Shown here: in pieces, positions 9,888 through 40,227 of the stretch
Position numbering within the stretch: position 1 is the stretch's first letter
How the letters are laid out: every line of letters begins with the position of its first letter
Source of the DNA: Archangiaceae bacterium
GTDB lineage: Bacteria > Myxococcota > Myxococcia > Myxococcales > Myxococcaceae
Reading direction: 5' to 3'
NCBI GenBank assembly: GCA_016879935.1
Contig: JAACJQ010000075.1
Coordinates: 1 to 40,227, forward strand
DNA length: 40,227 nucleotides
Position numbers and translations under genes: made by a program
Notes under the pieces: generated by a model
Databases searched by the model: none
What the model saw: the letters and a program-made list of their open reading frames with translations, nothing else
What the model was told of the DNA's origin: nothing

Positions 9888-10447
9888 TCCTTCGCGAGGG
9901 CCCGCAGCGTGTCACTGGCCGCCAGCCGCGCGACGAGCTTCTTCTTCAGGTACTTCGTCTGCCGCACCGTCACGCCCATCACGCCCGCGAGCTCTTCGTT
10001 CGTGAGCCCTTCTCCGAGGCCCTTCGTGAGCACGGTGTCTTCCTGCTTCGGGAGTGACTGGCGGAACGTGTCGACGGCCTGCTTCAAGGTCGCGCTCATG
10101 AATCGTTCATCGACGGTGGGGCCTTCGAGCCACAGCGCGTCGTCGAGGTCGTCGATGGGCACCGACGCATCGGGGCGGCGGCCCTTCGCGCGCAGCAGCT
10201 CGCGGCAGCGGTTCGCCGTCACGGCGCGCAGCCACGGCCCGAGCGCGCCACGGTTCACGTCGTACGAAGACTGCATGCGGTGAACCATGAGCCACACCTC
10301 CTGCGCTGCCTCTTCCTGCTCGAACGGGGTGCGGAAGAAGCGCGCCACCCAGCGGCGCACGTTCCGGGCGTTCGTCGAATACACGTCGAGAAAGGCGGCG
10401 CTCTCGCCGCGGGCGAATCGAACCTGCAACGTCGTGTCGTCCGACAC
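9875..10447 (-). CDS. ECF-type RNA polymerase sigma factor controlling the caspase operon
   Basis: A 190-residue sigma factor starting at a GTG at 10447. Region 2 is seen as RTPFEQEEAAQEVWLMVHRM and GPWLRAVTANRCRELLR. Region 4 is GLTNEELAGVMGVTVRQTKY, ending in a basic recognition helix (LKKKLVARL). It heads a tightly overlapping operon: sigma, anti-sigma, caspase-like protein, lipoprotein. A GAACC-type element on the minus strand (TGAACC, 10488-10493), about 40 bases upstream of the start, could be an ECF -35 box for autoregulation. The matching -10 is not convincing, so this is only a suggestion. Confidence 0.88.
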   Translation of the reverse strand: MSDDTTLQVRFARGESAAFLDVYSTNARNVRRWVARFFRTPFEQEEAAQEVWLMVHRMQSSYDVNRGALGPWLRAVTANRCRELLRAKGRRPDASVPIDDLDDALWLEGPTVDERFMSATLKQAVDTFRQSLPKQEDTVLTKGLGEGLTNEELAGVMGVTVRQTKYLKKKLVARLAASDTLRALAKEWLS

Positions 10448-10513
10448 TGTCAGGGCCTTATGCCCGGCCCCGGAATCGGGACAAACGGGTTCAGGCGCGC
10501 GGAGACGTCAGAC

Positions 10514-11431
10514 TCACGGCCGACAGTAATAGAGAGACCCCACCAAGCGGGGTTTGGCCCCCTCACAGTGCTGCTCGAAGGTCGCGCTGAATCGAGCGAT
10601 GGCGCCCCCATCTGGCTCGAAGACCGCACGCTGCACCTGGAAAGAACCCGTCAGCATGTTGCAGCCTCTGCCCTCACCGCTGATGCTCAAGCCAGCGTTG
10701 GTGTCGTTGAAGGGGTATCGCACGGCGCCGGTGAAGGCCTGACCGCTCGCAAAGTCGACGCCATTCTTGGTCTCGAAGGCGGCTGACCAGGTGGTGGGCC
10801 TGTCTTTCGGAGTGACGTCGAACCAGAGCTGGTTCTTGAAAACGCGACCGTCCAGGCTGTTCAAGAACCTCCACGAGCCCCTGACCGTGCGATTGCCAGG
10901 GGCACTGTAGTCGCCGTCTTCGCCCCTCAGCGTCAAGTAGCTGGAGTCGTCGGTACACGGAGCGAGCGCACAGACGTGAGCCGTGTTGCACACGTCTCCA
11001 GGCGCGCAGTCCACGGAACTCGCGCAGAGGCCCGGCTTGTTCGAACAGACCGTCATCGAACAGGTTTGCCATGGGTCACAGTTGGCGTCCGTGGAGCAAC
11101 CGCGGCGCACCGAGAAGGACGTCGCAGCCGTCACGACCGCTCCGTTCGTCGGCCAGGTCGCGGTGAAGCGATATGGAGGCGTGCACGTCGTGTCGCAGAG
11201 GAACTGCGCGCTCGCCGTGCCGAAGCTGTCGAGCTCGACACTGGGGCTCGAGAACGACCCTTGATCGGAGTCGAACGTCACCGTGCCCTTGCCAACGGTG
11301 CCATCTGGATTGGTGGCCACTGCGCGCACCGAGAGTCCTGACGTCACCGTGAGCGACAGCTCCGGAGTGCCCTGCGGTCCGGTCATGCACGACGTCAAGA
11401 CAACGAGCACCCCACCCAGGCGAACGCGCAT
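10514..11431 (-). CDS. Lipoprotein with Ig-like N-terminal domain and Cys-rich centre
   Basis: A 305-residue protein. I place the start at the ATG at 11431 rather than the GTG at 11440, because it gives a compact lipoprotein signal, MRVRLGGVLVVLTSCMTG, with lipobox LTSC. Residues about 25-110 resemble a bacterial Ig-like (Big) domain (VRAVATNPDGTVGKGTVTFD). A Cys-rich segment follows, CSTDANCDPWQTCS and CASSVDCAPGDVCN, a pattern frequent in myxobacterial surface proteins. The C-terminal 130 residues form a strand-rich unassigned domain ending in LVGSLYYCRP. It stands between tamB and the caspase operon on the same strand, separated from each by about 60 bases. No function is recognised. Confidence 0.78.
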   Translation of the reverse strand: MRVRLGGVLVVLTSCMTGPQGTPELSLTVTSGLSVRAVATNPDGTVGKGTVTFDSDQGSFSSPSVELDSFGTASAQFLCDTTCTPPYRFTATWPTNGAVVTAATSFSVRRGCSTDANCDPWQTCSMTVCSNKPGLCASSVDCAPGDVCNTAHVCALAPCTDDSSYLTLRGEDGDYSAPGNRTVRGSWRFLNSLDGRVFKNQLWFDVTPKDRPTTWSAAFETKNGVDFASGQAFTGAVRYPFNDTNAGLSISGEGRGCNMLTGSFQVQRAVFEPDGGAIARFSATFEQHCEGAKPRLVGSLYYCRP

Positions 11432-11487
11432 TTGAGCCACACGCTACTGCGCCGCGAAGTGTGGGCCAATCTGCAGAGGCGCGCTGA

Positions 11488-14400
11488 TCAGAAGTCGCGG
11501 CTCCACACGATGTCGGCGCCGAACGCAGGCGCATCGACGCCACCGCTCGCCTGCAGCGACACGTCTTTCGACACCTGCAGCTCGAGCCGGCCCGTGTGCA
11601 CGCTCTCACCACGCGCCTTGTTCGCGCCGGGCTGGCCGACGTAGCCGAGGTAGAGCGAGTCGCTCAGGTACTTGCCGACCTCGACGCGGGTCGACTCGAG
11701 GCCCTCTGCTCCCGTCTCGATGCTCACCACGTCGACGATGTCGATGGGCAGCCGTTTGAGCAGCGCCGACTTGAGCTGGTTCGCCGCGAGCGAGCCGATG
11801 ACCGACACCGCCTGCTCGGCCGTGATGGCGCCCGACGAACGCCGCAGGTCTCGCCGCCCCGTCGCGAGCAAGGTGTAGATGTCTGATTCGCTCATCGACG
11901 GGTCCGAGCTCACCTTCAGCACCACGTCGGTGCCGCGGCCGACGACGTTCACCGTCACCTTCACCTTCTCGCGGTCGTTCGTGTGCAGCGCGGTCACGTT
12001 CACGTACGGCTGCTTCGCAGGCCCGGCGAAGCGCACGGTCGAGTCGGAGCGGGCTCCGACGGTGTTCGAGCGCACCACCTTGAACTCGCGCCCGATGACG
12101 TCGATGCGGCCACCGAGCACCTGCGCCTCGCCGAAGAGCTGGGTCTCGCCGGTGTACTCGACGCGGAAGCCCTCGCTCAGCCCGAGCTCGAGGTTCAAGT
12201 CGGAGCTGCGCAGCCAGATGTTCCGCGGCGCGTCGATGACCGCGCGCACGGCGAGAGACGAGGCCTCGGCCTGCTTCACCGCTTCACCACGGCGGCGGCC
12301 GGCGATGGTGCGGCCTCCACGCACGATGACGAGGTCTTTGGGCCGCTCGAGGTCTTGAATGTCTTTTCGTTTCACCTCGGGCAGCTCGACGTCGACGCGC
12401 GAGAGGGAGATCTTCGGCAGCTCGATGGCGCCCTCGGAGAGCTCGGCGTTCAGCTCGTACTTCACGCTGAGAATCGCCAGCAGCTGGTCGTCGGTGACGA
12501 TGGGGAACCGCGTGGCCGTGCCGCTCGACTCGAAGGTCCAGATGCCGGTGGGCTGTCGCACGGCGACCAGGGGATTCATCGCGAACCCGCCACCACCGGC
12601 GCGCACCGACAACGTCTGCACCTCGACGCGCTCACGCGAGACGACGGTCTCGAGGTCGATGTCGCGGTAGTCGCCATAGCTCGCCAGGCCGAGCCGCCCC
12701 TTCTTCCACGCCACCTCGCCACCGATGTCGGGGTTGCCCGAGAGGCCCTTCACCTTGAAGTTCGAGAGCGTGAGCTGGCCTCCGACGATGCGCACCATCG
12801 GCGTCACGCCCGAGAGGAAGCCCAGGTCGAAGTCCTTCGAGGCGACCGAGAGGTCGAGCGGAATGGCCGTGAGCGAGAGGCCCTGGCGCAGCGTGGCGAT
12901 GGAGAGGTCGACGCCCACCGTGCCCGTCGCGCGCAGCTCACTGTTACCCGACGCCTTGAGCGTCAGCCCGATGGACTGCGCTTTGCCTTGCGTGCGGCTC
13001 ACCAGACGCGCCTGCCCGAGCGGAACCTTGCCGAAGCTGAGGCCCTGCACGGTGCCGTCGATGGTGAGCTTCGGGTCGTCGAGCGTGCCCTTCATGTCGA
13101 GGTCGAGGCTCACCGCGCCGGTCGGCATCACCTCGTCATCGCGTTTGGGCAGCAGGCGGCTCAGCGGCAGCGGCATGACCGAGAGGCGCCCGGTGACGTG
13201 CTCGGCCCCCAGCGCGTCGACGTGCTCCAGCTTCGCGAGCGTGGTGTCGACGAAGAGGTCGAGGTCGTAGAGCGGCTTGCCCAGCATGCGGCCCTTGCCC
13301 GAGAGGCGGGTGACGGTGTCTCCGGCGGTGAGCACGAGCGTGCCGTCGAGGTCTTCGAGCGGCGCAGCGTTCACCCGCTCGAAGTCGAGCGTCACCTGGC
13401 CCTTCGGGTCGTCGAGGCTGCCCACCACGTGCGCCTTCATCGAGGCGCGGCCCGTGACGTCGTCGAAGCCCTTCACGCCGAGCGCCTTCACCTTCTCGAG
13501 CGCGAGGCCGGCCACGGTCGCGTCGACGGTGAGCGGAGCCGTCATCAGCGCGTCGAGCGTCGGCAGCTGCCGTCGCAGGCCGGGCACGGTGAACGGCGTG
13601 ACGAGCGTGCCGGTGACGACGGCGCCGAGGGTGCTGGCCTCGAGCTTCGCCGTCAGCTTGCCCTCGTCGTTCGTCGCGACGGTGAGCACCACGGGCTCGA
13701 GCACGAGGTTCTGCTGGAGCGCTGCGGTGCGCGTGAGCGTGAACAGGTCGGAGCCCGCGCTGAGGGTGATGGCCGGGTCGTTCGCGGGCCCCTTCGCCGA
13801 GAGGTGACCGCTCAACGTTCCCGTCACTGGCCACGTCTCGGCCCGCCAGCTCTGGAGCGCCTCGAGGTTCACGTCGCGCACGTCGGCGTCGACCTCGAGC
13901 AGATCGCTCTGCTCGTCGCGGAGCGCGAAGACGGGCACGTCGAAGCGGCCGTCGATGGCGCCGAGCGACGAGCTGACCTGCGCGGTGCCAGTCGCGCGCC
14001 CATCGACGAAGCGGCCATCGACGGTGCCCGAGAGCTGCGTGACGCCCTTCACCGCGCCGTCTTTCACGGTCAGCTTCGCGACGACGTTCGGCAGCGGAAG
14101 CGCTCCGTCGAGAGAAGCATCGAGCGACACCACGCCCGAGAGCCCGAGCGTCGGCGGCACGAGGAACTTCGGCAGCCGGCCCACGTCGACGTCGACGGCG
14201 TGCACGTCGGCCTTCACGGTCTTGCCCTTCAGCTGGCCTTGCAGGCGCAGCTCCTGGCGGCCCGCCGTGAGCGTGAGCGGCGCGATGGAGACGCTGGGCT
14301 GCCACTCCACGCGGGTCGGCTGACTGAGCGTCCACCGGTCGACGCCCGTGTCGAGCTGCAGCGACGCGACCGCGAGCCCCGCCGAGTCGGCGTCGAGCGT

Positions 14401-35461: not shown

Positions 35462-37906
35462 TCAGACGAGGCGCAGCTGCGAAGGGCGGTGCAGGTGCGA
35501 CGGCGCCACGGGCTCTTCGATGACGCTCGGTGGAATCGCGTTGAGCCGGCCGGCAGCCGCGGCGCCCGAGAGGAACGCGCCCTCGATGCGCGCGCCCAGG
35601 CACCAGTCACCGCACAGCACCACGCGCCCCGAGTCGTGCACGAGACAGTCGGCGCCGAGCGGCTTCGTCACCAGCGCGTAGCGCCAGCGGTGCGCCTTCT
35701 GAAACGAGGGCTCGACGCGGGTGGCGCCCGTCGTCACGAAGAAGGCCTCGACGAGCTGCGGCAGCACCTGCTCCGGCGTCGCTTCGAGATGGGCAGCGCT
35801 CCACTCGGCGTTCGCGTGCACGACCCAGCGCTCTCCTTCACGGCGGTCGGGCTTCGACGACTCCCGCGCGACCCACGAGAGCGGGCCGACGTTGACGAAG
35901 GCCGCGTCGACGTCGAGCGAGAGCGGCTGGTCGAAGGCCAGCATCACGGCCCAGGTCGGCGCGTAGTGGGCTTCACGCACGCGCGAGGCGAGCTCGTACG
36001 AGAGGGGGTCGACCAGCGTCGCGGCCTGGGGCCCGGGCGTCGCCACCACCACCGCGTCGTACTCACCCAGCGGAGCGCCCGCTTCTCCCGTGAGCCCGAA
36101 GCGCTCGTCACGGCGCACCAGCCCATCGACGCGGGTGCCGTACCGAACGTCGAGGCCTTCGAGCATGCGCTCGAGCAGCGCGCTCATGCCGGGGGTGGCG
36201 ACGAGGCGCACGAGCGGCTTGCCCTCTTTCGTCGCTTCGAGCTCGACGCGCGGCTTCGGAGCGCCGAACACGCCCAGCTTCGGCTTCCACTCGGCGACGA
36301 CGCGCTCCTGCCACCACGCGCGCGCCAGCCTCGCGAAGCGCTCGTCACGCACGGTGAAGTACTGCGCGCCGTGGTCGAAGTGCAGCTCACCTTCACGGCG
36401 CGTCGAGAGTCTCCCGCCCGGGCCGCGGCCCTTGTCGAACACCGTCACGGCGTGGCCGGCATCGACGAGCGCGCGCGCACACGAGGCTCCCGCGACCCCA
36501 CCACCGACGACGGCCACCACGAGCGGCTGCCCCCGCGACGGCCGATGCATGCGGCGCTCGTACTCGGCGACGTCGAAACGTCTGCCCTGCTCGTCGAGGT
36601 CGCGCGAACGCACGCTGCCGAAGAACTTCGTCTCGGGGGTGAAGGGCCGGTCGAGCGCGCCGAGGCACCAGAGAATGCCGCCGTACGACGCGGGGTCGCG
36701 GCCATCTAGGGCGAAGCGGTGGTTCAGGTCGATGAGCACCGCGAGCGCTTCTCTCGCGTTCTTCGTCCACGGAATGAGGGCCTTCCCCCACGTCATGCGC
36801 ACGTTGTTGTGCAGCTCGCCGTGCGTGAGGAGCGAACGCTGCGCCGCGTCCCACAACGGCTGACCGGTCTGGGCGCGCGACAACTGCTCCCACGAGGGAA
36901 GGAACTCGCGCCCATCACGCTCGTGCAGCGCGAGCGTCTCTCTCGCCCACGCCGGGAGCACGTCGACGGTCTCGTGATTCGGGTGGTGCCAGCAGAAGTG
37001 CCAGGCGATTTCGCGGAACGTCAGCAGCTCGTCGAGGAACTTGTCGGCCGACTCGGTGCGGTGCGCCGCGCAGTCTCGCGCGACACGAAATGGCGAGAGG
37101 TGCCCGAAGTGCAGGTGCCCCGAGATGCGGCTGTTCGCGTCGCGCGTCGGGTCGTTGCGGTCTCTCGCGTAGCGGTCGAGCGTGGAGTCGCGGTAGCGCA
37201 GCCAGCGCGCGAGGCCTGCGTCGGCGCCGCCCTTCGTGTGATGCACGGGTCCGACGGTGTGGTCGATGTCACAGCCCGCGACGAGGCCAGGGAGGTCGGC
37301 GGCCTGCAGGTCGAGCGAGTCGAACTCGGGCACGAACGGCGGGTGTGACGGCTCGACGTCGACCCACGGCGCGGTGAGGCGCGTCTTCCAGAGCGGCTCG
37401 GCGGCTTTGCGAAAGACGAACGCGCGATCCATCGGGCGGGGGAAGGCCCAGACTGGCGCGAGGCACGACGCGTCGACGCGCCACAGCGGAGCCACGGCCG
37501 CCACCTGCTCGTCCCACTTGAGCATCGGCTGAACGGGCATGAAGTCGACGACGACGAGCGCGGCGTCTTTCGCGAGCTCGAGCAGGTGCGGCCGCCGGTC
37601 GGTCGCGCGTTGCAGGTGGAAGATGGAGCCGATGCCGCGCGCCTTCAGGTCTCGCTGCAGGTCTCGCGCGCCCTCGAGGATGAACGTGTGCAGGCGGTCG
37701 GAGGCGTAGCGGTAGCGCTCCGAGAGCGCGTGATAGACGAAGCACGGCACGCCGAGTGACTTCGCCATCGAGAGCGCGACGTCGAGCGCGGGGTTCTCGG
37801 TGGCGCGTGCGGCGGTGCGCGTCCAGTACACGACGTACTTGCCCGCGCGCGGTGGTGGCGCTTTCGGGTCGACTCGCTCCGACAGGTGCGGGGGCAGTGC
37901 AGCCAT
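35462..37906 (-). CDS. Class II CPD photolyase fused to a renalase-like FAD oxidoreductase
   Basis: An 814-residue two-domain protein from the ATG at 37906. Residues 1-455 form a class II cyclobutane pyrimidine dimer photolyase: YWTRTAARATENPALDVAL, SGHLHFGHLSPFRVA, LTFREIAWHFCW, NNVRMTWGKALIPW, LDGRDPASYGGILWCLGALD and TPETKFFGSVR. It should repair UV dimers using reduced FAD and blue light. Residues about 462-800 form an FAD oxidoreductase with a Rossmann motif VVGGGVAGASCARAL (467-480) and the renalase-like DKGRGPGGRLSTRR (491-504), FDHGAQYFTVRD and a terminal GDWCLGARIEGAFLSG. Fusion of a flavin reductase-like domain to a photolyase suggests that it reduces the photolyase FAD (inference). 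It lies 20 bases before the kinase gene. Confidence 0.93.
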   Translation of the reverse strand: MAALPPHLSERVDPKAPPPRAGKYVVYWTRTAARATENPALDVALSMAKSLGVPCFVYHALSERYRYASDRLHTFILEGARDLQRDLKARGIGSIFHLQRATDRRPHLLELAKDAALVVVDFMPVQPMLKWDEQVAAVAPLWRVDASCLAPVWAFPRPMDRAFVFRKAAEPLWKTRLTAPWVDVEPSHPPFVPEFDSLDLQAADLPGLVAGCDIDHTVGPVHHTKGGADAGLARWLRYRDSTLDRYARDRNDPTRDANSRISGHLHFGHLSPFRVARDCAAHRTESADKFLDELLTFREIAWHFCWHHPNHETVDVLPAWARETLALHERDGREFLPSWEQLSRAQTGQPLWDAAQRSLLTHGELHNNVRMTWGKALIPWTKNAREALAVLIDLNHRFALDGRDPASYGGILWCLGALDRPFTPETKFFGSVRSRDLDEQGRRFDVAEYERRMHRPSRGQPLVVAVVGGGVAGASCARALVDAGHAVTVFDKGRGPGGRLSTRREGELHFDHGAQYFTVRDERFARLARAWWQERVVAEWKPKLGVFGAPKPRVELEATKEGKPLVRLVATPGMSALLERMLEGLDVRYGTRVDGLVRRDERFGLTGEAGAPLGEYDAVVVATPGPQAATLVDPLSYELASRVREAHYAPTWAVMLAFDQPLSLDVDAAFVNVGPLSWVARESSKPDRREGERWVVHANAEWSAAHLEATPEQVLPQLVEAFFVTTGATRVEPSFQKAHRWRYALVTKPLGADCLVHDSGRVVLCGDWCLGARIEGAFLSGAAAAGRLNAIPPSVIEEPVAPSHLHRPSQLRLV

Positions 37907-37995
37907 CGGGCTCGGAGATAACAGCACCACCTCGGGTGCGCCCGCCGGACCCCAGCAGAGTCCGAGCTTGAAGCGGAACCGAACCGGGGCCGCCC

Positions 37996-38535
37996 TCAGG
38001 CCTCGAGAAGTGCGCAGACACGGCCGACCAGTTCCTTGAATGACGGGCATCGCCCGAGGAATTGGGCGCGCGCCGTGAGGTCGGCGACCGCGAGACGATG
38101 ACACGCTCGATCTCTGTCCCTGAGGGCGGGCTTTCCCGCCTCGAGTTGGAGACCCGAACACTCGGCGGCCGCTCTCGCCACGTCGTCCATGTTGCGGACG
38201 ATCAGGACGACATTGTCGGGCTCCGAGTCAGTCCGTTCCGAGAGGATTTGGATGACCTGCTCTCGGGCCGCCTGCGGCAGTAGACCTAAGTGCTCGCGAA
38301 TCTTGTCGTCGTCCGGAGCAAGAACTCGGGTGGCTCTACTCGCAACTAAGTGTGCCTTCGGGATCAGCTTGTCCACACCACTGAAACACCGAAATGCCAC
38401 TTGGAATGACAGTTCATGCTCGCTCTCTAACTGCAAACGCTGGTCGGCAACGCATTTCAACAGCAACACATGAGGCCCAAAGTTGGTGACCCCACGCATC
38501 TGCGAGTCCTCGTACAGAACGGTGGCCTTCGTCAT
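37996..38535 (-). CDS. Small partner of AAA ATPase, possibly TOPRIM-like
   Basis: A 179-residue protein whose ATG at 38535 overlaps the ATPase stop by four bases (ATGA). I see acidic motifs that could form a TOPRIM-like metal site: Glu9 in TVLYEDSQM, Asp117/118 in NVVLIVRNMDDV, and Asp140/142 in ALRDRDR. TOPRIM nucleases pair with AAA ATPases in several phage-defence systems (OLD/Gabija, PARIS, DUF4276 partners), but no family signature is clear here and the assignment is tentative. The local DNA looks less GC-rich than its neighbours. Confidence 0.65.
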   Translation of the reverse strand: MTKATVLYEDSQMRGVTNFGPHVLLLKCVADQRLQLESEHELSFQVAFRCFSGVDKLIPKAHLVASRATRVLAPDDDKIREHLGLLPQAAREQVIQILSERTDSEPDNVVLIVRNMDDVARAAAECSGLQLEAGKPALRDRDRACHRLAVADLTARAQFLGRCPSFKELVGRVCALLEA

Positions 38536-39740
38536 TGCGAGACGCTCGTGAGGATCTCGGGGAGCATCCCATCGCGCCGAATTTCCCCGAGCGAGTGGTA
38601 CATCTTCCGCCACTCGACGAGCCTGTCAGCATCGATGCCGTTCAACACCGCTCGCCGCGACGCATCGAGTGTCAGCACGCGGACGAACCTCTCGGGCTTG
38701 TCGAGAGCGTCGAGGAATGCGTCGGCGTGAGTCATCACGAGGACGGGTCGACGAGCAGCGATCTCCTCGAACAGCCAAGCGGCGCGCGTGAGCAGGCGAG
38801 GATGAAGGTGAAGTTCGGGCTCGTCCCAGATCACCGCAGACGCCTCGTGGTCGAGGTGCTTGAGCGCGACGAGGAGCAGGTAGCTGAGCTGTCCCTGTGA
38901 CAATTGAGACGCTGGCACCTCTCGCGTTCCGAAATGGAGCCGGAGCTGCATTTGGCCCGGTGCCGGCGACGCGACTGATACGTACGAGACGTCAAGGCCG
39001 AGGCCCGCTCGAACGTCCTCGAGAACAGCTCTGTTCACGTCGGGACCCTTCGCGAGGATCGTCGAATAGACCGACGTGATATTCGAGCCGTCGCGGGCAA
39101 GTCGCCGGGCAGGCTCTGGTCGCGTTGGGTTTCTCAAGGAGCGGACAGTGCCGAGTTCGTGAGGCTGCGCCCACAAGGGTCCCACTTCGATCGGAACGAA
39201 TGTGTCGAGAGAGGAAAACACGCGACGGACGAGCTCAATCTCCCCGCTGGGATCCTGAATGCCTGGCGCGAGCATGGCAGACTGTTCCTGATCGATGGAC
39301 AGCCTCTGACCGAGGGTCGGCCCGTCGGAGGCCGACCGCCACATCGCGTCGGGCCCGGTTCTGCTGAAGACCGGGTAGAACTGCCCGATATCCCCCATTC
39401 GCGAGAGCGTTTCCTTTGCGAACGACGGCAGCCCGACGCCCGAGGAGGCGAGTTCGGCGGAATACTCGACCAACGTCTCGCCCTCCTCGCAGCGTGCGGT
39501 CAGACGAAATGGAATGGCCAATGACCGCCGAAGCTCCGAGAGATCCCCGTGGCGGGTGTAGAAGTCGAACGCAAAGCGGCCTGGGGTCGCCAGCCTGCGA
39601 AGGAGCTCGAAGCTCTCGACAATCGTGCTCTTGCCCGAGCCGTTCTCTCCGATGAACACCTGGAGGCCATCGAGCCGAATCGTGAGGTCCTCTATGCATC
39701 GGAATCCCTGAATCCTCAAGGACGTGAGCTTTGCGGCCAT
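38532..39740 (-). CDS. AAA-type (AAA_15/21, ABC-like) ATPase, putative defence protein
   Basis: A 402-residue cytoplasmic protein from the ATG at 39740. SMC/ABC-like ATPase motifs are complete: Walker A GENGSGKST (31-39), signature LSQGQLS (280-286), Walker B AVIWDEPELHLHP (302-314) and switch His338 in VLVMTHAD. The N-terminus LTSLRIQGFRCIEDLTI is diagnostic of AAA_15/21 proteins related to RecF/OLD. It is coupled to a small downstream gene. Such pairs are frequent in defence islands. Codon use looks less GC-biased, suggesting transfer. A metabolic or DNA-repair role cannot be excluded. Confidence 0.85.
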   Translation of the reverse strand: MAAKLTSLRIQGFRCIEDLTIRLDGLQVFIGENGSGKSTIVESFELLRRLATPGRFAFDFYTRHGDLSELRRSLAIPFRLTARCEEGETLVEYSAELASSGVGLPSFAKETLSRMGDIGQFYPVFSRTGPDAMWRSASDGPTLGQRLSIDQEQSAMLAPGIQDPSGEIELVRRVFSSLDTFVPIEVGPLWAQPHELGTVRSLRNPTRPEPARRLARDGSNITSVYSTILAKGPDVNRAVLEDVRAGLGLDVSYVSVASPAPGQMQLRLHFGTREVPASQLSQGQLSYLLLVALKHLDHEASAVIWDEPELHLHPRLLTRAAWLFEEIAARRPVLVMTHADAFLDALDKPERFVRVLTLDASRRAVLNGIDADRLVEWRKMYHSLGEIRRDGMLPEILTSVSQ

Positions 39741-39941
39741 TTGCGAACCTTACCGGAGAGTGGGCGCGCGGTCCGGTTCACGACGAGCCAGCCAAGCTGC
39801 TCAGCGACCCTCGTCTCCTCCCGGAGTACGAGGCCACCCTTGGCGAACCCTCCGGTGAAGAGCAGGCCAACGCTATGCGAGATAACACACCTCATCGGGT
39901 GCGCCCGGAACCTGTCTCGATGTGGTGGAGTCTGTGGGGAC
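39741..39941. other. Non-coding gap, no feature recognised
   Basis: About 200 bases between the divergent ATPase and the plus-strand secreted protein. It is somewhat richer in A/T than the flanks. I see no tRNA, inverted repeat or insertion-sequence end. It must contain the promoters of both neighbours. Confidence 0.5.
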
Positions 39942-40227
39942 ATGCTCCTCGCCCTCGTGTTGACCGCCGCGCCCGTCGAGCTGCACGTGTTGTCAGCCGG
40001 GCTGCTCGCGCCGTCGACGAAGACGCCGGTGGGTGCGCTGTCGGACGTCTCCATCGACGCGAAGAAGTGGCTGTCGCCCACGCTGATGAAGGCGCACCAC
40101 GAGAGCAAGACGGTCGAGCTCGAGGCCCTCGTCGACCTCGACCGTGATGGCACGTACGTCGAGGCGCTGGCCAACCGCGACGTCGCGCTGGCGGGTACGG
40201 GGCCGTGGACGGTGGTGCTCAAGAAGA
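39942..40227 (+). CDS. Probable exported protein, 3' end beyond window
   Basis: Plus-strand frame open from the ATG at 39942 to the window end (95 residues). Reads MLLALVLTAAPVELHVLSAG, a short signal peptide-like start, then LLAPSTKTPVGALSDVSIDA and an Asp-rich DLDRDGTYVEAL. Codon bias matches local genes. Too little is visible for a family. A minus-strand frame across the same bases is the weaker alternative. Confidence 0.55.
   Translation, partial: MLLALVLTAAPVELHVLSAGLLAPSTKTPVGALSDVSIDAKKWLSPTLMKAHHESKTVELEALVDLDRDGTYVEALANRDVALAGTGPWTVVLKK

Follow-up and report, generated by a model that had tools for sequence, protein, structure and literature searches.

A stand-alone gene pair of an OLD-family ATPase and a small, putatively TOPRIM partner in an Archangiaceae bacterium

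Introduction

Near the right-hand end of the window, the term used here for the whole 40,227-nucleotide stretch of DNA that was analysed (contig JAACJQ010000075.1 of an Archangiaceae bacterium), a gene for an ABC/OLD-type ATPase is joined to one for a much smaller protein. The question that this locus raises is what the small protein is, and whether the two together might constitute an anti-phage system. Modules of an ABC ATPase and a TOPRIM protein recur in several such systems, to which the present pair would add a further partner. In PARIS, as described in extracts of PMC12409363, the TOPRIM protein AriB is kept in an inactive state by a hexamer of the ABC ATPase until a phage protein binds to this ATPase; AriB, once released, dimerises and then cuts tRNA. 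The same extracts list AbiL alongside OLD and PARIS, and state that homologues of AriB exist in many uncharacterised anti-phage systems, while the substrates are given as DNA for OLD and GajA and as tRNA for AriB (extracts of PMC10568477 and PMC12409363).

Results

A conserved two-gene unit

The locus comprises two genes, both read from the minus strand:

38532..39740, minus strand: ABC/OLD-type ATPase gene (component A), ATG start, 402 aa
37996..38535, minus strand: small TOPRIM-like protein gene (component B), ATG start, 179 aa

An earlier note on this DNA had described a RecF/OLD-like ATPase overlapping by four bases with a 179-residue protein, and both open reading frames are indeed in place, with the letters ATGA shared between them as a 4-bp overlap. 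The codon-position GC of the two genes (0.69 and 0.76 at the third position, 0.42 and 0.47 at the second) indicates that both frames are truly coding. Conservation likewise argues that they are real genes, since the two proteins share 47% and 55% identity with those of a congener and full-length homologues are found across several families. An Rfam scan of 37500-40227 gave no match, and a promoter scan found no promoter and a single terminator-like site at chance level. The pair is also less GC-rich than its flanks, as the earlier note had observed: its GC content is 62.0%, against a mean of 69.2% and a minimum of 65.5% among 362 stretches of the same length from the rest of the contig, and its GC3 of 0.74 compares with 0.88 in five neighbouring genes. 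A second GC dip in the window lies at 10001-11500 (63.8-65.0%).

The ATPase and the small protein form a conserved unit. The family of the small protein was sought over 195 genomes of the phylum, starting from the window protein and continuing with profiles whose scope is that phylum. With a 12-row profile (E 0.001), it is found in 13 of the 195 genomes as 16 copies, three in G005, two in G011 and single copies in the remaining 11; a further small-gene remnant in G151 was seen in earlier searches, not with the 12-row profile at E 0.001. An ATPase of the window's family lies directly upstream of every one of the 12 intact copies. At eleven of the junctions the genes overlap, by 1 or 4 bp, and at the remaining one a gap of 2 bp separates them; some starts of the homologous ATPases are the ends of matched stretches rather than start codons, and the stops and junctions are correct.

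Broken small genes also occur, five in number (L028, L029, L053, L027 and L054) and located in four other genomes, in which the gene is split between frames, truncated or internally deleted. The upstream ATPase is retained in L028, L029 and L053, and no ATPase match was detected for L027 and L054. Any single broken copy could be a sequencing or assembly error, and the broken copies, two of them without a detectable ATPase, suggest that the pair is gained and decays. There is no second copy of the small protein in its own genome, three more rows at E 0.1-0.6 being noise. Searches of plasmids with the small proteins P0001 and L025, of phages with L025 and of viral contigs with the small proteins gave no match, nor did the ATPase of L049 against plasmids or the window ATPase against phages. 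A scan of genome contigs with P0001 alone returned nothing, and one with a two-row alignment returned a single locus, in the same record as L024.

The ATPase

The three motifs of an ABC/OLD ATPase, Walker A, the signature and Walker B, are all present in component A, and an H-loop-like TH-A-D is carried as well:

39627..39650, minus strand: Walker A GENGSGKS, residues 31-38 (from sequence and conservation)
38799..38903, minus strand: ABC signature LSQGQLSYL (280-288) to Walker B WDEPELHLHP (from conservation)

Within Walker A, residues G31, N33, G34, G36, K37 and S38 are invariant in all 13 ATPase rows, and the same holds for S281, G283, D306, E307, H311 and P314. Pfam assigns the protein to AAA_21 (6e-19) and AAA_15 (1e-14), and its PADLOC matches are HEC-01A (1.7e-31, in two stretches), AriA (5.8e-20) and MAD3 (1.4e-17). 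The NCBIfam MAD3 match (1.5e-22) falls far below the cut-off of that model, and the RecF-like match to TIGR00611 (3.7e-9) is also below cutoff. ABC ATPases were reportedly classified by Krishnan in 2020.

The small protein and its predicted active site

The small protein has no match to any Pfam or PADLOC model at E up to 10, and NCBIfam returns just two weak, irrelevant rows, which bears out the earlier view that it carries no clear known signature. Its acidic motifs had been called scattered; they are more than that, as E9, D75-x-D77 and an acid at position 117 are conserved in all 12 intact copies. In these copies E9, D10, H22, D31, D75, D77 and N115 are invariant, while position 117 is E in 10 and D in two, the window protein being among the latter. 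R141 and R156 are nearly invariant, and it may be guessed that one or the other could act as a basic residue.

A model in which the window protein was placed first reached a pLDDT of 55 from two rows and gave no fold match. With the family member L048 (190 aa; from the same record as L024) placed first and the window protein added, pLDDT rose to 65.6, with a pTM of 0.61. Foldseek matched the latter model to the TOPRIM domain of XccOLD, the Xanthomonas OLD protein (6njw, E 3.5e-4), which was the sole PDB match below 0.001. In VIA-align, ranks 1 to 10 were all GajA/OLD TOPRIM domains (Z 7.9-7.2, rmsd 3.9-4.5, 146-161 aligned); rank 11 went to an unrelated protein (Z 6.7) and rank 49 to a small TOPRIM protein (Z 5.1), with the warning that Z under 8 may reflect a common arrangement and that the model derives from two sequences. 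In BFVD an unrelated 630-aa phage protein ranked first (E 9.5e-4), ahead of a viral RloB-like protein at rank two (E 0.01).

The L048 model runs strand-helix-helix-strand-helix-helix-strand-helix, and its three strands are followed in turn by E12, D80-x-D82 and N119-x-E121. The predicted metal ligands of the window protein are as follows:

38509..38511, minus strand: E9, predicted to bind metal A, where strand 1 ends (ED invariant; from conservation; compare TsOLD E377 and BpOLD E400)
38305..38313, minus strand: D75-x-D77, both acids predicted to bind metal A, where the DxD strand ends (compare TsOLD D431/D433 and BpOLD D455/D457)
38185..38193, minus strand: N115-x-D117 (family N-x-[E/D]), predicted metal-B motif (compare TsOLD S478-x-E480 and BpOLD T506-x-E508)

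According to extracts of PMC7049728, metal A is bound by E377, D431 and D433 in TsOLD and by E400, D455 and D457 in BpOLD, and metal B by D381, S478 and E480 in the former and E404, T506 and E508 in the latter. From their order and from the predicted strands, E9, D75 and D77 are predicted to be the counterparts of the OLD metal-A ligands, and N115 and D117 those of the metal-B S/T-x-E motif. At the metal-B motif, the acid is kept and S/T is replaced by N in 12 of 12 copies. In OLD proteins a further acid follows the first E at +4 (TsOLD D381, BpOLD E404), and the E of the VEGxTE motif of DUF4276 is the same acid; this column is unconserved in the small family, which instead has the invariant D10 directly after E9.

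Probable kinship with DUF4276

DUF4276 is present in 33 of the 97 genomes of the phylum searched for it. Directly upstream of it, on the same strand, 27 of 30 loci have an ATPase that matches the profile of the window's ATPase family (E 1e-44 to 1e-17), the exceptions being L063, L072 and L075, and the ATPases near RloB or DUF4435 genes match that profile far more weakly (best 4e-15). PADLOC identifies the DUF4276 proteins as HEC-01B (five tested) and their linked ATPases as HEC-01A (three tested), the latter with E-values of 6e-99 to 1.5e-171 against 1.7e-31 for the window ATPase. A maximum-likelihood tree built from 44 ATPases places the 13 that have the new partner in a single clade (98/97), next to but separate from the 27 DUF4276-linked ATPases; the four RloB/DUF4435 rows of this tree are long branches, whose placement is unsure. 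G057 has a DUF4276 gene of the HEC-01B type some 8 kb away from one copy of the pair (contig C94, 4028-4645 and 12935-13498).

The profile comparison with DUF4276 and DUF4435 that the earlier note had proposed gave a match of Pfam DUF4276 to one of the eight small-family members tested (E 0.006), and none of PF14491 (DUF4435) to the same number at E up to 10. The HEC-01B model likewise matched none of eight at E up to 10. When the 12-row small family was compared with 27 DUF4276 proteins by hhalign, a score of 29.4 was obtained over 110 collinear columns, at an absolute probability of 24%, the alignment pairing DxD with DxD, NMES with ELEAW, and a C-terminal PSF. None of 100 column shuffles reached this score (maximum 15.8), the reversed control scored 11.5, and the background for the small family was 13.2 with response regulators, 14.6 with its own ATPases and 16.1 with five RloB proteins. 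RloB and DUF4276 are related families, and their score against each other, as a reference, was 32.2. Removal of DUF4276 group Y, G or P gave 33.5, 33.4 and 31.2, whereas removal of group S (eight sequences) gave 19.0 (P 0.05), and an 8-row family alignment gave 22.3 (P 0.011). Because the score depends on group S, and because Pfam matches only one member of eight, the kinship is graded as likely rather than proven: the small protein is likely a remote relative of the DUF4276 (HEC-01B) family. A TOPRIM fold is supported by the model and the profile, and the conserved residues, the profile similarity to DUF4276 and the fold matches together point to a stand-alone OLD-type TOPRIM nuclease.

Apparent insertion and mobility

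The features that surround the pair are the following:

35465-37906, minus strand: left flank, DNA photolyase N-terminal part fused to a flavin amine-oxidase part (Pfam)
37915..37944, plus strand: left-hand unit of an imperfect 30-bp direct repeat, with a perfect 13-mer at its end (37932-37944)
37949..39921: apparent insertion containing the pair, with no homologous sequence at the corresponding site of congeners (flank alignments)
39879..39907, plus strand: right-hand unit of the same repeat, on the other side of the pair (repeat search of flanks)
39942-40226, plus strand: right flank gene of at least 95 aa, cut by the contig end (ORF)

The place between the flanking genes is a variable spot between two conserved genes. 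In three of the six congeners (L114, L115 and L116) these two genes share a contig, and in all three the pair is absent without trace, other sequence standing between them. Homology to the congener flanks stops at 37896-37948 and restarts at 39921-39923. The interval 37906-39942 differs in each congener, with gaps of 2459, 2251 and 1201 bp in L114, L115 and L116, respectively, and in L114 the start of the right-hand gene occurs a second time, as a 52-bp stretch with 83% identity. The photolyase/amine-oxidase fusion is kept in five of the six congeners (in one as two matched pieces) and is absent as such in G152. On the other side, contig C391 (G000:C391:3-86) opens with 28 residues identical to the last part of the right-end gene, and is probably the continuation of the window.

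Among 1000 random flank pairs of equal size none attained the score of the direct repeat, and with larger flanks one of 300 did. The left copy of the repeat is similar to what precedes the photolyase gene in congener G150, and the insertion may therefore have duplicated a target or promoter region. No comparable direct or inverted repeat was found at the other 11 loci, the nearest being a direct repeat at L026, which 10 of 300 random pairs equalled. The GC3 of the pair, with neighbour genes called by an in-house ORF heuristic, is below the mean of the neighbours at 12 of 12 loci and below that of every neighbour at seven. A Pfam scan of ten ORFs adjoining the other copies revealed no defence island: they belong to housekeeping families (kynureninase, NAD-binding oxidoreductase, DUF167, thioredoxin, HCS1-type helicase, Lnb_N, RecA and HSP20), or, in two cases, have no match. 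It therefore seems that the pair travels alone, outside defence islands. The transfer signature on which the earlier note had staked its reading is thus visible: from its absence in three of three congeners, its low GC3 at all 12 loci and the flanking repeat, the pair looks mobile.

Discussion

A proposed mode of action

The explanation that we consider probable is that the pair is a stand-alone mobile operon, in which an OLD-family ABC ATPase is combined with a separate, highly divergent OLD-type TOPRIM nuclease for a PARIS-like anti-phage action. The role in anti-phage defence is one that we infer by association, and a PARIS-like scheme would most likely be the most economical reading for the pair. 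By analogy with PARIS, the ATPase would oligomerise and, in complex with the small TOPRIM protein, keep it inactive; the trigger would be a phage protein or a state of the DNA, which the ATPase would sense before releasing or activating its partner. The freed small protein, probably a dimer, would then act as a nuclease on a nucleic acid substrate, tRNA or DNA, by two-metal catalysis, with E9, D75 and D77 holding metal A and N115 and D117 holding metal B. Such cleavage would stop phage production, with arrest or death of the cell.

A more tentative proposal, to which we assign somewhat less than even credence, is that the small proteins represent a separate, unnamed lineage of free-standing OLD-type TOPRIM effectors with a re-wired metal-B site, and thereby a new two-gene anti-phage system. 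The re-wiring would consist in E9-D10 for E-x3-E/D and N-x-E for S/T-x-E, and the lineage would stand beside AriB (DUF4435), HEC-01B (DUF4276) and RloB. If this were true, the re-wired site may mean another substrate, and the pair offers a natural variation of the metal site for asking which residues set the choice between tRNA and DNA. As the PADLOC and Pfam profiles miss the partner, operons like this one would go uncounted.

Several observations would also suit a toxin-antitoxin or addictive operon, in which a TOPRIM toxin held by the ATPase served selfish stabilisation without anti-phage specificity: the two genes overlap, their GC is lower, their positions are scattered and stand-alone, and some copies are broken, while the Pfam label of AAA_21 itself reads 'putative AbiEii toxin, Type IV TA system'. 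We regard this as unlikely, since the known relatives with an ATPase/TOPRIM layout that are covered by extracts of PMC12409363 and PMC10568477 (PARIS, Gabija and OLD) are phage defences, and since antitoxins are typically small, whereas the ATPase is the large component and conserved. The patchy distribution of the pair (13 of 195 genomes), its absence from the same place in all three congeners with both flanks, its low GC3 at every locus and its broken copies, at least five in number, weigh in turn against a housekeeping or DNA-repair function of the RecF/RecR kind, unrelated to conflict. Such a function, which would accord with the sub-cutoff TIGR00611 match of the ATPase, with the one copy of the pair that adjoins recA and with the presence of TOPRIM in RecR (extracts of PMC10568477), appears very unlikely.

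The small protein might, alternatively, regulate the ATPase as an alpha/beta (Rossmann-like) protein without a TOPRIM fold, its kinship with DUF4276 being spurious. It has no match to a curated family, its profile score is modest and its model is of low confidence, all of which agree with this idea. Yet the top ten fold matches all belong to one family and Foldseek agrees independently, the conserved acids follow the predicted strands in the OLD order, and the small gene occupies the operon slot of DUF4276. A non-TOPRIM regulator is thus distinctly unlikely, and the OLD-type TOPRIM nuclease remains the preferred assignment for component B.

Comparison with known systems

The OLD and Gabija GajA proteins share with the pair an ABC ATPase of the same broad family and the metal-A triad of E and DxD, and their TOPRIM domains are the best fold matches of component B. 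However, the pair consists of two polypeptides rather than one, has N in place of S/T in its metal-B motif and no conserved acid at +4, and, unlike Gabija, no GajB helicase neighbour is seen beside it. Systems of the RloB/AbiL type also combine an ATPase with a small TOPRIM-like partner, and the viral RloB-like protein ranked second in BFVD. Membership in RloB is nevertheless rejected, as the hhalign score of the small family against the five RloB proteins (16.1) is near background and the RloB-linked ATPases are far more distant.

With PARIS (the ABC ATPase AriA and the TOPRIM protein AriB), the pair has in common the adjacency of its two genes and, to the extent that the low-confidence model is right, a TOPRIM partner and the fold class. 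AriB is a protein that we take to be DUF4435, and the partner of the present pair, at 176-224 aa, has no DUF4435 similarity in eight of eight members. Since, furthermore, the DUF4435-linked ATPases match the window ATPase profile weakly and are far more distant, membership in PARIS/DUF4435 is rejected. In PARIS itself, Ocr or Ptr sets off the cleavage of tRNA. The PARIS-like layout proposed in the earlier note is supported as regards a two-gene ATPase with a TOPRIM-like partner, but the nearest relative is HEC-01, not PARIS.

HEC-01, which is itself only a candidate system in the PADLOC library, pairs an AAA_21 ATPase (HEC-01A) with a DUF4276 protein (HEC-01B), and a search of one library of papers for DUF4276, also combined with AAA and phage, found no mention of that domain. 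Its gene order, overlapping operon and homologous ATPase are those of the present pair, whose small partner distantly matches DUF4276 by profile; on the other hand, this partner has no HEC-01B match, and the ATPases of the window's group form their own clade. Given the shared operon slot and the likely kinship of the partners, we read the pair as a diverged sister system to HEC-01 and an analogue of PARIS, by test a member of neither.
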